Shown here in pieces: positions 41,222-64,000 of a stretch of 64,000 nt of DNA. The notes below the pieces were generated by a model. That model did not search any database and was not told where the DNA came from. It saw only the letters and a program-made list of their open reading frames with translations. The position numbers were made by a program, and so were the translations under genes. The stretch is taken from the NCBI RefSeq assembly GCF_014084105.1, contig NZ_CP048289.1, positions 5,155,922 through 5,219,921 on the forward strand. The letters run 5' to 3'. Source of the DNA: Streptacidiphilus sp. P02-A3a (lineage in GTDB: Bacteria > Actinomycetota > Actinomycetes > Streptomycetales > Streptomycetaceae). Each line of letters starts with the position of its first letter. Position 1 is the first letter of the stretch.

Positions 41222-42478
41222 CTAGCCGGCGGTCTCCTCCTTGGCGACCTTGACGGCGTTGCTGACCGCGAGCTTCTTGGCGGCCGGGGTGGCCGCGGTG
41301 CCGCAGAACACCGGGGTCAGCGCCAGCAGCTCGGACGCGTAGATGTTCATGTTGTTGGACGCGTTGGCCGAGATGGTGACCTGGCGGGAGCCGTTCTTGG
41401 TCGAGTAGGCGTAGGTCTGGTAGCCCTCGATGATCCCGTCGTGGCCGTACACGTCGACGCCGCAGGGGAGTTCGTACTCGCGCAGGCCGAGGCCGTAGCG
41501 GGTGGTCGAGTTCACGAACTCGGTGTTCTCCATCTGCGCCAGCTCGGCGGCCGGGAGCAGCTTGCCGGTGGTCAGCGCGAGCAGGTAGTTGTTCAGGTCC
41601 GAGGTGCTGGAGATCAGCGCCCCGGCCGTCCAGAGCCAGGAGGCGGTCTGGTTGGTCGCGTCGAACAGCGGCTTGGTCGGGTCGTCCTGGGTGAGGTAGC
41701 CGATGGAGTGCACGCCCGGGATGGTGGTCTGCGGCACCACGAAGTAGGTGTGGTTCAGGTGCAGCGGGGTGAGGATCCGCTGCTGCAGCACCGTGGCGTA
41801 CTGCTGCCCGGTCACGTGCTCGACCAGCAGGCCGAGGACCACGAAGTTGGTGTTGGAGTAGCTGTACTCGCTGCCGGGGGTGAACTGCTGCCCGTGCTTG
41901 ACCGCGTCCGCGACCAGCGCCTGCGGCTGGTAGGTCTTGTAGCGGAAGCCCTGGTAGCCGGTGACGGTGTCGCCGGTCAGCAGGTCGTTGGTGTAGTCGT
42001 AGAGGCCGCTGGTGTGGTCCAGCAGCTCGCGGACGGTGATCGGCGAGCCCTTGGGCAGCAGACCGGCCGGGAGGTACGCGCTGGCCACCGTGTCGAGGTT
42101 GACCTTCTTCTGCGCCACCAGCTGCAACACCAGGACCGCGGTGAAGTCCTTGGTGATGCTGCCCACGCGGAACTCTCCGCCGGGGTTGACCGCCGCCTTC
42201 GTGGCTATGTCGCCGGAGCCCACGCTGACGGTGTAGCTCTTCTTCCCGGACCCGTCCTGCACCTGGGCGAAGACGCCCGGCGCGCCGGACTTGACGACCG
42301 CCTGCAGCGCCGTGCGCAGCGCCGTCAGGTTGGGGGCGGGGGTCGGAGCCGGGGCTGCCGCCTTGCTGACCACGGTCGCGTTGGCCGGTGCTCCGGTCGC
42401 CAGGACCGAGGCGAGGGTTCCGGCCAGTACTGCGCCGACCAGGGTTCCCCTGGCGGCGCGGGTACGACGTCGATACAC
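41222..42478 (-). CDS. Secreted SxxK serine hydrolase (DD-peptidase / class C beta-lactamase fold)
   Basis: 418-residue protein of the beta-lactamase/penicillin-binding superfamily. Catalytic motifs: SITK at 106-109 (SxxK), YSN at 206-208 and HDG at 345-347 (the KTG equivalent). The N-terminus has an Arg-rich n-region, a hydrophobic stretch and an A-N-A cleavage site near residue 33, so export is likely. The GTG at 42478 is favoured because GGAG (42488-42485) lies 6 nt upstream; ATGs at 42484 and 42502 are alternatives. Exported members are usually DD-carboxypeptidases or esterases, perhaps protecting the cell wall here. Cytosolic relatives serve as trans-acting macrocyclising thioesterases for NRPSs that end in a D residue, as NRPS2 does, but the signal peptide argues against that role. 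Confidence 0.88.
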   Translation of the reverse strand: MYRRRTRAARGTLVGAVLAGTLASVLATGAPANATVVSKAAAPAPTPAPNLTALRTALQAVVKSGAPGVFAQVQDGSGKKSYTVSVGSGDIATKAAVNPGGEFRVGSITKDFTAVLVLQLVAQKKVNLDTVASAYLPAGLLPKGSPITVRELLDHTSGLYDYTNDLLTGDTVTGYQGFRYKTYQPQALVADAVKHGQQFTPGSEYSYSNTNFVVLGLLVEHVTGQQYATVLQQRILTPLHLNHTYFVVPQTTIPGVHSIGYLTQDDPTKPLFDATNQTASWLWTAGALISSTSDLNNYLLALTTGKLLPAAELAQMENTEFVNSTTRYGLGLREYELPCGVDVYGHDGIIEGYQTYAYSTKNGSRQVTISANASNNMNIYASELLALTPVFCGTAATPAAKKLAVSNAVKVAKEETAG

Positions 42479-42710
42479 GTACATCTCCAGTTCCGTGCTC
42501 ATACAAACAGATCGCGCCCAGCATCGCAGAGATCGGGCTGCCCCGGCCGGGAGTTGATCCGGCGGCGGCTGTGAGATGGCCGACCCCGGGACGGGCCGCA
42601 CCGGCCTCGAACTCCCCTCCGCAGGGTGACACCGCCCACGAAGCCGGTACGTCGGCGGGCAGCCTCGCTAGGCTTTCGAGAGCACCCGCCGCACCACCGC
42701 CGGAGGAGTC

Positions 42711-44527: not shown

Positions 44528-44743
44528 ATGGCGAACCCATTCGAAGACGCGGACGGCACCTACCTGGTGCTGGTCAACGAGGAGAACCAGCACTCGCTCT
44601 GGCCCGCCTTCGCCGAGGTCCCGGCCGGCTGGACGGTCGCCTGCGGCCCCACCGGACGCCAGGACTGCCTCGACTACGTCGAAGCCAACTGGACCGACAT
44701 GCGCCCGGCCAGCCTGATCCGGGCCATGGCAGAGGCGAACTGA
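44528..44743 (+). CDS. MbtH-like NRPS chaperone (second copy)
   Basis: 71-residue MbtH-family protein with [16 protein letters not shown] and the WTDMRPASL block. It is clearly diverged from the copy at 32252, with different N- and C-termini. AGAGGA (44514-44519) is 8 nt upstream of the ATG. It sits 277 nt after the monooxygenase, so it probably has its own promoter, and 101 nt before the type II thioesterase. It may be paired with the third NRPS, while the first copy is paired with NRPS1/2 (inference from position). Confidence 0.95.
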
Positions 44744-44844: not shown

Positions 44845-45642
44845 ATGTCCCTTCCCGCCAGCACCGACAACCCCTGGGTCCGCCCCTGGAATCCGCGCCC
44901 CCACGCCCGGATCCAGCTGCTGTGCCTGCACCCGGCGGGCGCCGGGGCCTCCTTCTACCAGGACTGGTCCGCCGCGCTGCCCCTCGACGTCGAGTTGCTG
45001 GCCGTGCAACTCCCGGGCCGGGAGAGCCGGTTCGTGGAGCCGCTGCTGGAGGACTACGAGCAGGCGGTAGCCGCCACGTACGCCGCGCTGCGCCCGTACC
45101 TCGCCCGGCCGTACGCGCTCTTCGGCCACAGCATGGGCGCGCTGCTCGCGTACGGGGTCGCGCTCGCCGCGCGGCGGCACGGCGATCCCGCGCCCGCGCG
45201 GCTGTTCGTCAGCGGCGCCGCCGGTCCCGGCGTCCCGCGCGACAACACCGGACGCCCGGGCTGGACGGACGACGAACTCGTCGCCGAACTGGTCCGGTTG
45301 GGCGGCACGCCGAAGGAGGTCCTGGCGCACGCCGAACTGCTCAACCTGCTCCTGCCGTTGCTCCGCGCCGACTTCACGCTCTGCGACTCCTTCGAGGCGT
45401 CCCCGGCCTTCACCGTGGGCGCGGAGCCGCCGCTGGACTGCCCGGTCTCGATCCTCGGCGGCGACGAGGACGAGCGGACCGCCGCCGAGCTCGCCCACTG
45501 GTCCGCGGTGACCAGCGGCGGCTCGACCCAGCGGGCCTTCCCCGGCGGCCACTTCTTCCTCCGCGACCCGTCCGGACCGGCGGTCCGAGCCGCGGTCGCC
45601 GCGGACCTGGCCGCCCGACGTGATCCGAAAGACCGGCCCTAG
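44845..45642 (+). CDS. Type II thioesterase (NRPS editing)
   Basis: 265-residue alpha/beta hydrolase. Nucleophile Ser96 lies in GHSMG; an Asp in LGGDEDE (~209) and a His in GGHFF (~236) complete the triad. The LCLHPAGAGASFYQDW start is the family oxyanion region. Type II thioesterases remove wrong or stalled acyl groups from carrier-protein arms. GAAGAGG (44830-44836) precedes the ATG. The stop shares a CTAG with the stop of the convergent cupin gene. NRPS1 and NRPS2 have no integral thioesterase, so this stand-alone enzyme could also contribute to release, although such enzymes usually only proofread. Confidence 0.93.
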   Translation: MSLPASTDNPWVRPWNPRPHARIQLLCLHPAGAGASFYQDWSAALPLDVELLAVQLPGRESRFVEPLLEDYEQAVAATYAALRPYLARPYALFGHSMGALLAYGVALAARRHGDPAPARLFVSGAAGPGVPRDNTGRPGWTDDELVAELVRLGGTPKEVLAHAELLNLLLPLLRADFTLCDSFEASPAFTVGAEPPLDCPVSILGGDEDERTAAELAHWSAVTSGGSTQRAFPGGHFFLRDPSGPAVRAAVAADLAARRDPKDRP

Positions 45643-46229
45643 ACCGGCGCGGCGGCGGTCAGCACCGGCTGGTCGTAGGTGCGGCGGATGCTGGTGCCCC
45701 GCTGCCGCACGTCCACGCCGTAGACGTGCAGCGAGACGGCGGTGGCGGTGGTCGCGTTGCGCACCCGGTGGATGTCGCCGGGCGGCGTGACCCAGGTGAC
45801 CGCGCCGGCCGGGTGGACGGTGGTGGCGACCGGGAGCAGCACGGTCCGCTCACCTCCGGCGTCCAGCCGGTAGCTCGTCTCCTCCTCGGCGCCCAGGTGG
45901 GTGCCGACCACGCACCACGCGGTGTGGTCGTGGATGCTGGTCCGCTGTCCGGGCAGCCACACCAGGGCGACCACGGAGAAGGAGCCGTCCGCTTCGACGT
46001 GCAGCACGTGCTGGCGGTATCCGGCCGGATCGGGTTCCAGCTGCGCGGGCGGCACCAGGTCGGTGCGGCACAGGAACGGTGCCAGCGCGTCGGCGACCCG
46101 TCGCGCGCGTTCCTCGGCCGTCGGGGCGGCCCGCACCCCGGCTCGGATGGCGGCCACGAGTTCGCTGAGGAGTTCGGTCATGAGAGGCGACTGCTCCAGT
46201 GCGGTGAGGGCGATCTGACGGATAGTCAC
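45639..46229 (-). CDS. Cysteine dioxygenase-type cupin
   Basis: 196-residue cupin with both cysteine dioxygenase motifs intact: GQRTSIHDH (G-x5-HxH, H100 and H102) and PPGDIHRVRN (PxGxxHxxxN, H154). The three His would bind Fe(II). Family members oxidise L-cysteine to cysteine sulfinate with O2; thiol substrates other than cysteine are possible. The GTG at 46229 begins 11 nt after the upstream PLP-enzyme gene on the same strand, so the two form an operon. No clear Shine-Dalgarno sequence is seen, and an ATG 15 codons in is an alternative. The stop overlaps that of the convergent thioesterase. Confidence 0.88.
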   Translation of the reverse strand: MTIRQIALTALEQSPLMTELLSELVAAIRAGVRAAPTAEERARRVADALAPFLCRTDLVPPAQLEPDPAGYRQHVLHVEADGSFSVVALVWLPGQRTSIHDHTAWCVVGTHLGAEEETSYRLDAGGERTVLLPVATTVHPAGAVTWVTPPGDIHRVRNATTATAVSLHVYGVDVRQRGTSIRRTYDQPVLTAAAPV

Positions 46230-46240
46230 ATACGCTGGTG

Positions 46241-47557
46241 TCAGGCCATGGCGGGCAGCGGCCCGGGAACCGCCGCCACCGCCGCGATCGCAGCCAGGCT
46301 CGCCGGGTCGTGCACGGCCGCCCGGGGGACGGTCAGGTCGGGTTGACGGGTCGTCAGTACATGGTCCCGGGCGAACCGGGCCCGGCCGCCGCCGGTGATG
46401 TTCAGCAGCACCGACGCCCTGGTGTCGATCCGGCCCGCCGCCACGGCCGCCCGCAGCGCGGCGAGCGCGACCCCGGCGGCCGGTTCGATGTCGATCCCCT
46501 CCAGCTCCTGGAAGGAGGCCATGGCCGCCAGCGCTGCCCCGCGGTCGGCGACGAGGACGTCCCCGGCGCTCTCGGTCAGCGCCTCGCACAGGCCGCCACG
46601 CAGGTCGTACGGCGGGCGGCGGTTGGTCAGTTCCGGCGCGAACGCCAGCTCGGTGGCCCGGCGTTGGCCCTCCTCGGAGCCGCTCTCCCAGAGGCGTTCG
46701 CCGGTCTCCCAGGCGCGGTACACCGGCGCGTAGGCGTCGTTCTGAGCCAGAATCAGCTGCGGCAGCGGTCCCGGGCGGCTACATCGGAGCCGGAGCGCGG
46801 CCTCGTGCACGGCGATGGCCCCGGCTCCGCTGCCGATCGCCTGCAAGTAGTACTCGGGCAGTTGACCCATCGTCTCGACGGCGGCGAGCAGCACGGTGGC
46901 CAGACCGTCCCGGCGGCCGACGTTCCTGGTCCCGCCCTCGTGGACGAAGCCGGGGAGCCGGGCCAGCGCGTCGCTGAGCGCGATGGCGTCGGCGTAGTCG
47001 GCCCCCTCGACCGCGATCAGGCGTACCAGTGCGGAGCGCGGGCCACGGGTGCGCAGTCGGGGCACGGCGGAGGCGGGGACCACGATGGCCACCGGGACCT
47101 CGTACCGCGAGCAGAGTTCGGCGAAGGCGGCGGCGGTGTTGCCCGCCGAGGCGACCACCAGCGTCCCGGCGTCCGCCGGGATCCGGCCGATCACCGCGGC
47201 GGCCTCAAGTTCCTTGAAGGTACCGGTAGTCAGGTCGCCGCCGCGCTCGGGCCAGTAGCCGTTGAAGGCGATCCACAGCTCGTCCAGGCCGAGTTCGGCG
47301 GCCAGCCGCTCGCTGCGGTGCACCACGGTCCGGCCGGTGCCCTCAAGCGTGCGCCGCACCGGCAGCCAGTCGCGGTAGCGGAACACCCCGCTCTGACTGG
47401 CGTCGGGGACGAACTCGGTTGCCTGGTAGTCGGTTTGCCACAGCCCGGGCTCGTGCTGCCCGGCGCAGCCGAGGGTCAGGCCATCGTCGGCCTGTCGTCT
47501 CCCGCAGACGGAGCACACGAGGCGGTAGTGGGACGCGTCGGTCGAATCACCGTGCAT
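46241..47557 (-). CDS. PLP enzyme, threonine synthase / cysteate synthase-like
   Basis: 438-residue fold-type II PLP enzyme. The N-terminus has a zinc-ribbon-like CSVCG...C (Cys15, Cys18, Cys31). The PLP lysine is K115 in TGTFKELEA. SAGNTAAAFA and IGSGAGA match the substrate and phosphate loops of the threonine synthase group. The opening YRLVCSVCG, the LWQTDY and VFRYRDWLPV segments and the IAFNGYWPE stretch remind me of cysteate synthases, which make cysteate from phosphoserine and sulfite, but I cannot separate the subfamilies by eye. ATG at 47557; GAGAG lies ~11 nt upstream. First gene of an operon with the cysteine-dioxygenase-like cupin, divergent from the Dpg genes. It probably makes or modifies a non-standard amino acid. 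Confidence 0.8.
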   Translation of the reverse strand: MHGDSTDASHYRLVCSVCGRRQADDGLTLGCAGQHEPGLWQTDYQATEFVPDASQSGVFRYRDWLPVRRTLEGTGRTVVHRSERLAAELGLDELWIAFNGYWPERGGDLTTGTFKELEAAAVIGRIPADAGTLVVASAGNTAAAFAELCSRYEVPVAIVVPASAVPRLRTRGPRSALVRLIAVEGADYADAIALSDALARLPGFVHEGGTRNVGRRDGLATVLLAAVETMGQLPEYYLQAIGSGAGAIAVHEAALRLRCSRPGPLPQLILAQNDAYAPVYRAWETGERLWESGSEEGQRRATELAFAPELTNRRPPYDLRGGLCEALTESAGDVLVADRGAALAAMASFQELEGIDIEPAAGVALAALRAAVAAGRIDTRASVLLNITGGGRARFARDHVLTTRQPDLTVPRAAVHDPASLAAIAAVAAVPGPLPAMA

Positions 47558-47894
47558 GGTGCTGTTCACTCTCGGTGTGGTCGGTGCGTCAGGATCCCGC
47601 CGTACAGCCGATCCCGGGCTGTCCGGGTCAACTGGCCCGGTACCGGCGCGGTGCACTCGCGGCTCAGAGCCTGGGGCGCGCGACGGAACAGCGGATCTCG
47701 CTCGTGCGAACGCGAGATGAATTCACCCTTGATAGTGGTGGCTTCCCGAGCGGTTCATCTTCCTTCATTGGCACGTCAGTTGCGGTACGCCGATGATATT
47801 GACTAGCCTTCAGCCGGAGAAGCACCGATCGCAACGGTTCGCCGTGCCGATCTCAAGGGCAGCGCTGCACTCCGAACCACCGCGAAGGACAAGC
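47558..47894. promoter_or_regulatory. Divergent intergenic region upstream of the Dpg operon
   Basis: 337 nt with no supported gene, lying between the PLP-enzyme gene (leftward) and hpgT (rightward), and AT-richer than its surroundings from about 47715 to 47815. It holds a 7-bp perfect inverted repeat, ATCTCGC (47695-47701) and GCGAGAT (47712-47718), around a 10-nt spacer, a possible operator. A TTGACT box (47799-47804) has no convincing -10 partner. Both divergent operons are likely started from here. Confidence 0.5.
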
Positions 47895-49196
47895 GTGGCG
47901 AACCACCGACCCAGTGTTTTCACGGAAATCGACCTGTCGGACCTTCACGCTTCACTGGCCGCCCCGGTCAGCGAATCCATGAACTTCCTCAACGAGATCG
48001 CCCACCGGTTCCCGGACGCCATATCCCTGGCCGCCGGGCGGCCGTTCGAGGGTTTCCTCGACCCGGACGACGTCCACCGCTATTTCGACGCCTACCGTCA
48101 GCACCTGAGCTCCCGCCTGGGCGGCGACGAGGCTGCCGTACGCCGCACGCTGCTTCAGTACGGGCGCACCAAGGGCATCATCCACGAGCTGATCGCCGAC
48201 CACCTGCGGGTGGACGAGGGGATCACCGCCGATCCGGAGGCCCTGGTGGTCACCGTCGGCTGCCAGGAGGCCCTCTACCTGACGCTGCGCGCGCTGCGCC
48301 GCAGCGACCGGGACGCGGTGCTGGCGGTGACGCCCAGCTATGTCGGGGTGCACGGGGCCGCCCAGCTGGTGGACATGCCGGTGCTGCCGGTCCGCGAGTC
48401 GCCCGAGGGCATCGACCTGGAGGACCTGCGGGCGCAGGTCCGGTGCGCCCGGGCGGCCGGCCTCAACCCCCGGGCCTGCTACGTCATCCCCGACTTCGCC
48501 AACCCCAGCGGGATCAGGCTCGACCTCGACACCCGGCGGCAACTGCTGCGGATCGCCGCCGAAGAGGACCTCCTGATCCTGGAGGACAACCCCTACGGCC
48601 TGTTCGGCGACCCGGCCGGACCGCCGACGCTCAAGGCCCTGGACAGCACTGCCCGGGTCGTCTACCTGGGCTCCTTCGCCAAGACCGGCCTTCCGGGCGC
48701 GCGGGTCGGCTTCGCCCTGGCGGACCAGCGGATGGCCGGGTCGCCGGGGGTCCTGGCGGACCAGCTGGCCAAGATCAAGAGCATGCTGACGGTCAACACC
48801 TCGCCGATCGCGCAGGCCGTGATCGGCGGCAAGCTGCTGGCCCACGGGTCCAGCCTGCGAGCCGCCAACGCCCGTGAGACCGCGCACTACCAGCAGAACC
48901 TGGCTCAGGTGCTGTCCGGACTGGCGAAACGATTCAGCGACTCCCCCGGGGTCTCCTGGAACACCCCCGCCGGCGGTTTCTTCCTGCTGCTCACCGTGCC
49001 CTTCCCGGTCGGCGACGAACTGCTCGAAGTCAGCGCCGAGAAGTTCCGAGTGCTGTGGACACCGGTCCACCATTTCTATGCCGACGCCCGGGCACGCAAT
49101 GTCATGCGGCTCTCCTTCAGCCATCTGCGATCCGACGAGATCGAAGCGGGACTCGACCGCCTGGCGGACTTCATCCGCGAACAGCCGCACACCTGA
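47895..49196 (+). CDS. hpgT: PLP aminotransferase for (di)hydroxyphenylglycine, HpgT-like
   Basis: 433-residue fold-type I aminotransferase. Lys263 in SFAKTGLPGARVGF is the PLP lysine; NPYGLF and PDFANPSG are aspartate-aminotransferase-like cofactor contacts. It belongs to the group that includes HpgT of glycopeptide clusters, which converts 3,5-dihydroxyphenylglyoxylate (and 4-hydroxyphenylglyoxylate) to the phenylglycine. The assignment rests on family resemblance plus its place directly before dpgA-D. GTG start with AAGGA (47885-47889) 5 nt upstream. No hydroxymandelate synthase or oxidase gene is present, so it probably serves Dpg only. Confidence 0.88.
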   Translation: MANHRPSVFTEIDLSDLHASLAAPVSESMNFLNEIAHRFPDAISLAAGRPFEGFLDPDDVHRYFDAYRQHLSSRLGGDEAAVRRTLLQYGRTKGIIHELIADHLRVDEGITADPEALVVTVGCQEALYLTLRALRRSDRDAVLAVTPSYVGVHGAAQLVDMPVLPVRESPEGIDLEDLRAQVRCARAAGLNPRACYVIPDFANPSGIRLDLDTRRQLLRIAAEEDLLILEDNPYGLFGDPAGPPTLKALDSTARVVYLGSFAKTGLPGARVGFALADQRMAGSPGVLADQLAKIKSMLTVNTSPIAQAVIGGKLLAHGSSLRAANARETAHYQQNLAQVLSGLAKRFSDSPGVSWNTPAGGFFLLLTVPFPVGDELLEVSAEKFRVLWTPVHHFYADARARNVMRLSFSHLRSDEIEAGLDRLADFIREQPHT

Positions 49197-49220
49197 CAGC
49201 CGATTCAGAAAAGGGAGGCC

Positions 49221-49288
49221 GTGAATCCGATGGACGTGTACACGCCGCTTTTGCGGAGCAAACCGAGAAGCTGGGGCTGGACGTACCG

Positions 49289-49292
<4 letters not shown>
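49221..49292 (+). CDS. Possible 20-23 residue leader ORF coupled to dpgA
   Basis: A strong GGGAGG (49213-49218) lies ~70 nt before the dpgA ATG and faces a small frame starting at GTG 49221 or, with better spacing (11 nt), ATG 49230. The frame ends at TGA 49290-49292, which overlaps the dpgA ATG as ATGA. The peptide (MDVYTPLLRSKPRSWGWTYR from the ATG) resembles nothing I know. It may only load ribosomes onto dpgA by translational coupling. It could also reflect a frameshift that removed the true dpgA N-terminus. Confidence 0.4.
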
Positions 49293-52520
<3,228 letters not shown>

Positions 52521-52587: not shown

Positions 52588-53394
52588 ATGCCGACAGACC
52601 TCACCCGGATCCGCTACGAGAAGCGCGACCGCGTCGCCCACGTCACACTCGACCGTCCGGAACGCCTGAACGCCATGGATCTGCGGATGCACGAGGAACT
52701 GGCCCGCGTCTGGGACGACTTCGAGGCCGACGACGACCTCTGGCTCGCCGTCCTCACCGGTGCCGGGGACCGGGCGTTCTCGGCCGGACAGGACCTCAAG
52801 GAACTCGCCGCCCGGATCACCGACGGCAGCAACGCCCCGTCCACCTTCGGCAGCCGGGGCAAGCCCGGGTGGCCCCGGCTCACCGAGCGGTTCGACCTGG
52901 CCAAGCCGGTGATCGCCCGGGTCAACGGCCACGCCTTCGGCGGCGGCTTCGAACTCGCGCTCGCCTGCGACGTGATCGTGGCCTCGGACACCGCCACCTT
53001 CGCCCTGCCGGAGGCCAAGCTCGGCCTGATCGCCGGTGCGGGCGGGGTGTTCCGGCTCGCCCGGCAGGCACCGCACCGGGTCGCCGTCGGACACCTGATC
53101 ACCGGTCGCCCGATGACCGCCGCCCGCGCCTACGAACTGGGCCTGGTCAACGAGGTCGTGGCCGCCGACGACCTGGACACCTGCGTGGACGCCTGGATCG
53201 CGGACATCCTGCGCTGCGCCCCGCTCGCCGTCCGCGCGGTCAAGCAGGCCGCCGCCGCAGCGGCCACCCTGCCACTCGACCAGGCCTTCCAGACCCGGTT
53301 CCCCTGGGAGGAGCGGCGGATGCACAGCGCGGACGCGGAAGAGGGACCGCTCGCCTTCGTCGAGAAGCGGTCCCCGGAGTGGAAAGCCCGCTGA
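52588..53394 (+). CDS. dpgD: DpgD, enoyl-CoA hydratase of the Dpg pathway
   Basis: 268-residue standard crotonase. [11 protein letters not shown] begins the fold, [11 protein letters not shown] and [19 protein letters not shown] form the CoA/oxyanion site, and [16 protein letters not shown] follows in the usual place. In glycopeptide producers DpgD assists DpgA/DpgB in forming 3,5-dihydroxyphenylacetyl-CoA. It lies 67 nt after dpgC in the same direction and completes the hpgT-dpgABCD set. The ATG follows a weak AGAAAG. Confidence 0.93.

Positions 53395-53649: not shown

Positions 53650-64000
<10,351 letters not shown>

Follow-up and report, generated by a model that had tools for sequence, protein, structure and literature searches.

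A 64,000-nucleotide stretch of Streptacidiphilus sp. P02-A3a (contig NZ_CP048289.1, positions 5,155,922 to 5,219,921), referred to here in its whole length as the window, carries a pair of minus-strand genes beside a set of genes for dihydroxyphenylglycine (Dpg). The first gene of the pair encodes a pyridoxal phosphate (PLP) enzyme and the second a cupin, while a nonribosomal peptide synthetase (NRPS) begins beyond the Dpg genes and continues past the end of the window. A sequence-only reading of this DNA had described a tight operon next to the Dpg genes, and this layout stands, as both open reading frames occupy the coordinates given in Table 1, are 11 bp apart if the cupin starts at position 46229 and have DpgA-D nearby. 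We think it likely that the PLP enzyme, as a cysteate synthase, would provide cysteate for two adenylation (A) domains of the 11-module NRPS and that the cupin would be a non-essential helper in the supply of sulfite.

The synthase-cupin gene pair

By sequence, the PLP gene is a member of the cysteate synthase family. Its product reaches 410.2 bits with TIGR03844, the model for cysteate synthase, whose curated equivalog cut-off is 324.9 bits, and 118 bits with PF00291; every threonine synthase model listed gives 87 bits or less. In the PDB, it matches 9K3C/9K3O (entered as cysteate synthase) best, with 326 bits; the highest-scoring threonine synthase gives 43 bits, and a threonine synthase identity was rejected on these scores. 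The earlier label of a threonine/cysteate-synthase-like enzyme is hence borne out on its cysteate synthase side. All 73 near-invariant columns of the family (those shared by 52 or more of 54 alignment rows) are kept by the window enzyme; K115, the putative PLP lysine, aligns with the lysine of four threonine-synthase-type rows, while many other near-invariant columns differ from those four. No other gene in the 9.33-Mb genome exceeds the TIGR03844 cut-off. The enzyme that gives the family its name makes cysteate from phosphoserine and sulfite in the coenzyme M synthesis of Methanosarcinales, a reaction reportedly described by Graham and colleagues in 2009. The window enzyme shares the family with this enzyme by score and by near-invariant residues, but lies in an actinomycete NRPS cluster and in a separate subclade of the tree. 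Its product is likely to be L-cysteate, formed from O-phospho-L-serine and sulfite. A role in defense was also considered and was rejected, there being no PADLOC match.

The cupin falls in the thiol dioxygenase family. It scores 34.9 bits against PF05995 (CDO_I; cut-off of 23) and matched none of the NCBIfam models, and its best PDB matches are 6XB9, 4QMA, 4WVZ and 3USS (97 to 86 bits), with mammalian cysteine dioxygenase (CDO) at about 25 bits. A YRQ motif aligns with the YQQ of 3-mercaptopropionate dioxygenase and places a Gln at the position of the substrate carboxylate, which we take to be that of Arg60 in mammalian CDO. The cupin does not appear to be of the classical Arg-type, as it has Gln where Arg is expected; most of the mammalian CDO matches begin after this position. 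YRQ, HDH and GDIH are present in the window cupin and in all six of its cluster relatives, and the roles of the three His iron ligands and of the Gln are presumably those of Gln-type thiol dioxygenases. HDH, GDIH and the Gln are matched in 3-mercaptopropionate dioxygenase (PDB 6XB9, 4TLF and 4WVZ), from which the window cupin differs in sitting in an NRPS cluster. The cupin resembles these Gln-type enzymes more closely than classical CDO; the earlier description of it as cysteine-dioxygenase-like was right about the thiol dioxygenase family and is refined, on the PDB scores and the YRQ motif, to the Gln type. Most likely, it would act as a non-heme iron thiol dioxygenase on cysteine or on a related small thiol; the sulfinate so formed could break down and release sulfite close to the synthase. 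A single-sequence fold prediction for the cupin had a mean pLDDT (predicted local distance difference test) of 45 and was not used.

Two other CDO-family genes of this genome score higher with Pfam (117 and 67 bits), and related cupins without a synthase occur elsewhere in the genomes of relatives. A LysR-type gene adjoins the cupin in four of seven such loci examined, the paralogs being of the Gln type and the regulator being confirmed with Pfam in L212 (3219-4902) and assigned by eye in L215 (4194-5812), L216 and L217. The paralog in L212 is near what looks like an amino-acid ATP-binding cassette transporter.

At an E value of 1e-60, TIGR03844 matched 2 of 394 genomes drawn from the class, 23 of 394 drawn from the family and 3 of 14 from the genus. 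A scan of genome contigs with the synthase protein, which reaches only relatives with a common short peptide, gave 33 loci spanning Kitasatospora, Streptomyces, Saccharothrix, Actinophytocola, acidobacteria, an oscillatorian cyanobacterium, Eremiobacterota, a spirochete and methanogens. In the synthase tree, the window lies inside a clade of 10 clusters with a support of 100/100. The synthase, the aminotransferase and DpgA-D are found in all 10 clusters, the aminotransferases of the others being 73 to 81% identical. The cupin is found in seven (the window, G518, G495, G548, G552, G457 and G434); the clusters of G530, G437 and G512 lack it, and their genomes keep DATKMGHV-type A domains. The G512 contig ends just past the first NRPS module, and the side where the cupin would lie is covered. 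Looking for the gene pair in other NRPS clusters, a check that had been proposed with the operon, thus found the adjacent synthase and cupin in six further genomes. This recurrence, together with the single match over the TIGR03844 cut-off in the genome, indicates that the pair is not a chance arrangement. A wide occurrence of the pair outside biosynthetic clusters, which had been named as evidence to the contrary, was not seen; what does occur elsewhere in the genomes of relatives is the related cupin without a synthase. In other cluster types, the stretches examined around the synthase contained no such cupin. The most economical history of the cupin on this tree would have a single gain and some three losses. 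Its presence in 7 of 10 clusters makes it look accessory, and its absence from the other three suggests that it is not required. Consequently, of the earlier proposal that the two enzymes jointly make an unusual residue, the cysteate reading is retained and joint synthesis is weakened.

Adenylation codes and residue 236

The cognate NRPS, from about 53650 to 89000, is divided over two proteins that together hold 11 A domains and finish in a thioesterase-like region; a search for epimerase motifs with a simple pattern found none. The first four A domains have codes of the form DVWH[MI]SLVD and are followed by DAFFWGVTF (A5), DATKMGHVG (A6), DAYHGGTLC (A7), DAFWWGGTF (A8), DATKMGHVG (A9), DVWHMGLVE (A10) and DAFWWGGTF (A11). 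We take DVWH[MI]SLVD and DVWHMGLVE to be Ser-like, DAFFWGVTF to be Ile-like, DAYHGGTLC to be Dpg-like and DAFWWGGTF to be Val-like. The predicted order of the peptide is Ser-Ser-Ser-Ser-Ile-Cya-Dpg-Val-Cya-Ser-Val, where Cya is cysteate at residues 6 and 9. The two candidate cysteate domains (C1:5227130-5227441 and C1:5236651-5236965) are both outside the window, and they put names to the A domains in the earlier idea, still the best reading, that the residue would serve a nearby NRPS. Oxidation of a cysteine already loaded on the assembly line is an unlikely route to cysteate and was rejected, because none of the 11 codes reads as what we take to be a Cys code.

The succession of DATKMGHVG, Dpg-like, Val-like and DATKMGHVG is kept in seven of nine relatives (G518, G530, G434, G548, G437, G457 and G552); the variable parts in these are the initial modules and module 10. 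A third DATKMGHVG precedes the succession in G437, and the shorter G495 has only the first. In G512, the contig stops within the NRPS, and this genome has DATKMGHVG and DATKMGHVA on two other contigs. For G434 and G457, the code of the first A domain came out misaligned and was left uninterpreted. The window would thus predict that Kitasatospora and relatives make a peptide family in which one Dpg is combined with, as a rule, two cysteates; no described product of this kind was found in the literature searched.

Residue 236 lines the A-domain pocket. We propose that A6 and A9 would select cysteate through an Asp-type pocket that is enlarged at this position (DATKMGHVG versus DLTKxGHxG). A smaller residue at 236, with Lys278 and His322 kept, would fit cysteate because a sulfonate is larger than a carboxylate. 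A profile of the A-domain core, labeled A1, was run as a control over the 394 genomes of the family draw and at an E value of 1e-38 matched 19 of them, of which 18 are among the 23 with a synthase (Fisher p of about 1e-25, not corrected for kinship). Thirty of the matched loci were read, giving 28 with DATKMGHVG, one with DATKMGHVA and one with DLTKMGHVG. Ala236 is present in 29 of these loci, all in synthase genomes, and Leu236 in the remaining one, which belongs to the synthase-less genome G480 (best TIGR03844 score of 67 bits, under the cut-off). In class draws, four synthase-less genomes were matched at 1e-33, all with DLTKVGEVG, and at 1e-17 there were 26 readable domains, these four included, from 23 genomes in which the class draw with TIGR03844 had shown no synthase; position 236 was Leu in 18, Phe in 7 and Met in 1, and a small residue was found in none of the 26. 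When 57 domains were combined, 22 of 22 with a small residue were in synthase genomes and 27 of 27 from synthase-less genomes were bulky, the remainder being eight bulky domains of synthase genomes, five of them Asn-like (Glu322) and three Asp-like.

The tree of these 57 rows was built from 12 of 29 DATKMGHV-type rows, L164, 17 of 22 further loci and all 27 rows L207-L210 and L254-L276; the partial L239 was left out, as were L234, L235, L236 and L242 (Thr-type or unrelated). The further loci are the 22 that were read out of 30, those at 64 bits or less (8 loci) and places without a locus (best of 105 bits) being unread; likewise unread were one family-draw place and seven class-draw places without a locus of their own, of which three belong to the synthase genomes G000 and G208. 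Six changes at residue 236 are counted on this tree (bootstrap of 5 to 7), two of which are forced by well-supported branches.

The synthase (C1:7013215) and three DATKMGHVG domains (C1:2715326-2735079) of G532, from the Kitasatospora group, are 4.3 Mb apart, which argues that the link between code and synthase is functional and not only physical. DATKMGHVG is also present in different synthase clusters of Streptomyces (G208, G661, G734, G691, G563, G674 and G549) and in those of S. resistomycificus, S. turgidiscabies and S. coacervatus, although the numbered genomes may duplicate named species, and it occurs twice on a synthase-carrying Streptomyces plasmid of NBC_01435. S. specialis, S. dioscori and Actinophytocola have DATKMGHVG-type domains on contigs other than that of the synthase, and Actinophytocola has a DGPKMGHVG domain 11 kb from it. 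The same change is seen in other pocket lineages, as DATKIGAVN (G646 and plasmid NBC_01340, the latter with Dpg genes) versus DLTKIGAVN (G089) and as DSTKxGHVG versus DFTKxGHVG. Domains with DATKMGHVG are likely users of cysteate. A broader proposal would be that a single change at 236, from Leu or Phe to Ala or Ser, repeatedly made Asp-type A domains select cysteate, that this change and the synthase together are enough to predict sulfonated peptides by sequence, in actinomycetes and possibly also in acidobacteria, and that the thiol dioxygenase was added in the present clade as a source of sulfite; we consider that this could as easily be wrong as right.

Competing explanations and known systems

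Several observations weigh against a supply of cysteate by the synthase to these A domains with help from the cupin. An A1-type domain at 1e-38 is missing from five of the 23 genomes of the family draw that have a synthase; G564 and G688 carry DSTKIGHVG in the same stretch as the synthase, G646 carries DATKIGAVN and neither G486 nor G614 showed a recognizable one. S. albipurpureus has DITKMGHVG about 1.1 kb from its synthase (and a partial DATKMG domain elsewhere), and bulky codes were found in the acidobacterium AA13 (DLTKVGHVG) and in Saccharothrix (DFTKIGHVG), both on non-synthase contigs. Phylogenetically independent pairs number two on well-supported branches and six on the best tree, leaving the test without power; this and the few changes on the tree indicate that shared descent explains part of the association between code and synthase. 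We also infer, rather than observe, the sulfite role of the cupin. A strict rule at residue 236 is disfavored by the five synthase genomes without an A1-type match and by the three bulky Asp-type domains in synthase genomes. The DSTKVGHVG domains of Saccharothrix and of the acidobacterium AA24 are weak evidence, as they are on contigs other than that of the synthase, and no DATKMGHVG-type code was recovered from S. cellostaticus, which has a synthase and DpgA-C.

It is possible, if somewhat doubtful, that the cysteate part is right and that the cupin does not contribute to sulfur supply for the peptide, acting instead in thiol detoxification or being a hitchhiker. The related cupins elsewhere in relatives, with their LysR-type neighbor in four of seven loci, and the three clusters that lack the gene are what such a view would predict; however, both branches of the deepest split in the clade (G434/G457 versus the rest) retain the cupin immediately downstream of the synthase. 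A larger role for the cupin, in which it would oxidize cysteine to cysteine sulfinate for loading or for further oxidation to cysteate and the PLP enzyme would be secondary, is very improbable. Its family and its position as the next gene behind the synthase in 7 of 10 clusters would suit this role, but G530, G437 and G512 keep their DATKMGHV-type domains without it, and it is absent from the other synthase-cluster stretches examined.

Two further alternatives concern the synthase and its partner domains, and we regard both as unlikely. A change of nucleophile comes easily to PLP enzymes of this fold, and an identity of only about 40 to 44% to archaeal relatives might indicate a drift to another beta- or gamma-replacement, with a different nucleophile or with phosphohomoserine, and hence to another unusual residue. 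Against such a drift, all of the near-invariant columns are kept, the equivalog cut-off is exceeded by a wide margin and the linked A-domain pocket looks acid-selective. The DATKMGHVG domains might instead load plain aspartate while the synthase serves another end, for example sulfonolipid synthesis, since the code is one residue from the Asp-like DLTKMGHVG of G480 and a Spirochaetales copy of the synthase adjoins a serine-palmitoyltransferase-like gene. However, a small residue at 236 was seen in synthase genomes only (22 of 22 rows), and such domains accompany the synthase in several cluster types.

Known natural products and their enzymes offer points of comparison for our preferred explanation, the synthesis of cysteate by the PLP enzyme for A6 and A9. 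The cupin SbzM of altemicidin biosynthesis acts on cysteine sulfur and leads to a sulfonamide by another route. Cysteoamide, a cysteate-containing nonribosomal peptide of Streptomyces lincolnensis, was reportedly described by Wang et al. in 2018 (J Org Chem 83, 7102). It would likewise be a cysteate-containing actinomycete peptide, while the window cluster differs in its Dpg genes, 11 modules and cupin; Streptomyces clusters with a DAYWWGGTF-DATKMGHVG order may be of the cysteoamide kind. Stenothricin contains cysteic acid (PMC10880069), as do the discodermins, for which the A domain for this residue was predicted as Asp (PMC12858407), so that at least one published cysteate site has been read as aspartate. 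These peptides have cysteic acid in common with the one predicted here, and their scaffolds differ from it. No literature pairing a cysteate synthase with a nonribosomal peptide or a biosynthetic gene cluster was found, and the portions of text found on cysteic acid and adenylation domains give no code for cysteic acid. Hence, cysteate-containing nonribosomal peptides are already known, while neither the synthase-cupin pair in a Dpg-type cluster nor the residue-236 rule was found in the literature searched, which mostly excluded subscription papers, so that an earlier description is possible. Cysteate gives a peptide a permanent negative charge, and if the synthase marker and the one-residue rule are true, clusters for sulfonated peptides could be found in genomes across the actinomycetes and perhaps in acidobacteria.

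Neighboring genes and other synthase loci

Table 1. Features of the window around the synthase-cupin pair
Feature	Position	Strand	Basis and remarks
Cupin, Gln-type thiol-dioxygenase-like, accessory	45639 to about 46229	minus	PF05995; candidate starts GTG 46229, ATG 46181, others further in
PLP enzyme, cysteate synthase family	46241-47557	minus	ATG start, 438 aa; longer GTG starts possible
Class I/II aminotransferase, conserved cluster partner	47793-49196	plus	PF00155
DpgA, 3,5-dihydroxyphenylacetyl-CoA synthase	49187-50392	plus	NF042429, 664 bits (cut-off 425)
DpgB	50389-51177	plus	NF042431, 265.7 bits (cut-off 140)
DpgC	51174-52520	plus	NF042432, 703.7 bits (cut-off 530)
DpgD	52588-53394	plus	NF042430, 469.4 bits (cut-off 400)
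MbtH-like protein	44552-44743	plus	PF03621, 87 bits
Stand-alone thioesterase	44845-45642	plus	PF00975, 158 bits
Start of cognate NRPS	53650-64000	plus	continues to about window position 89000; start codon picked by eye among candidates

The aminotransferase is probably for dihydroxyphenylglycine. An MbtH match lies near the synthase in 8 of the 10 related clusters, the window included, whereas a stand-alone thioesterase does so in only one relative (G434, 53%), the match in G512 (32%) being 30 kb off; whether the thioesterase of the window belongs to the cluster is uncertain. A second pair of NRPS genes, with nine A domains and one partial, occupies window positions 1 to 32189 and extends upstream to -6328. 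None of the relatives with flanks that were read had this pair in position next to the synthase, so that it is probably separate, and a single cluster of all the NRPS genes of the window was rejected. Between the two NRPS regions, on the minus strand at 41222-42601, is a serine hydrolase that resembles beta-lactamases and D-aminopeptidases and that might provide self-resistance.

Synthase NRPS clusters also occur on Streptomyces plasmid records of 1.0 to 1.7 Mb that are typed as mobilizable (L218-L223; NZ_CP108366.1 and NZ_CP109493.1). In the Spirochaetales locus L043 (2389-4959), the gene beside the cysteate synthase matches serine palmitoyltransferase at 323 bits, under the model cut-off, which suggests that this copy may act in sulfonolipid synthesis. 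An acidobacterial locus (L041, 6517-11293) has SbnA and SbnB, both over their NCBIfam cut-offs, and NRPS-like genes beside the cysteate synthase, an arrangement that suggests a supply of diaminopropionate and cysteate side by side.

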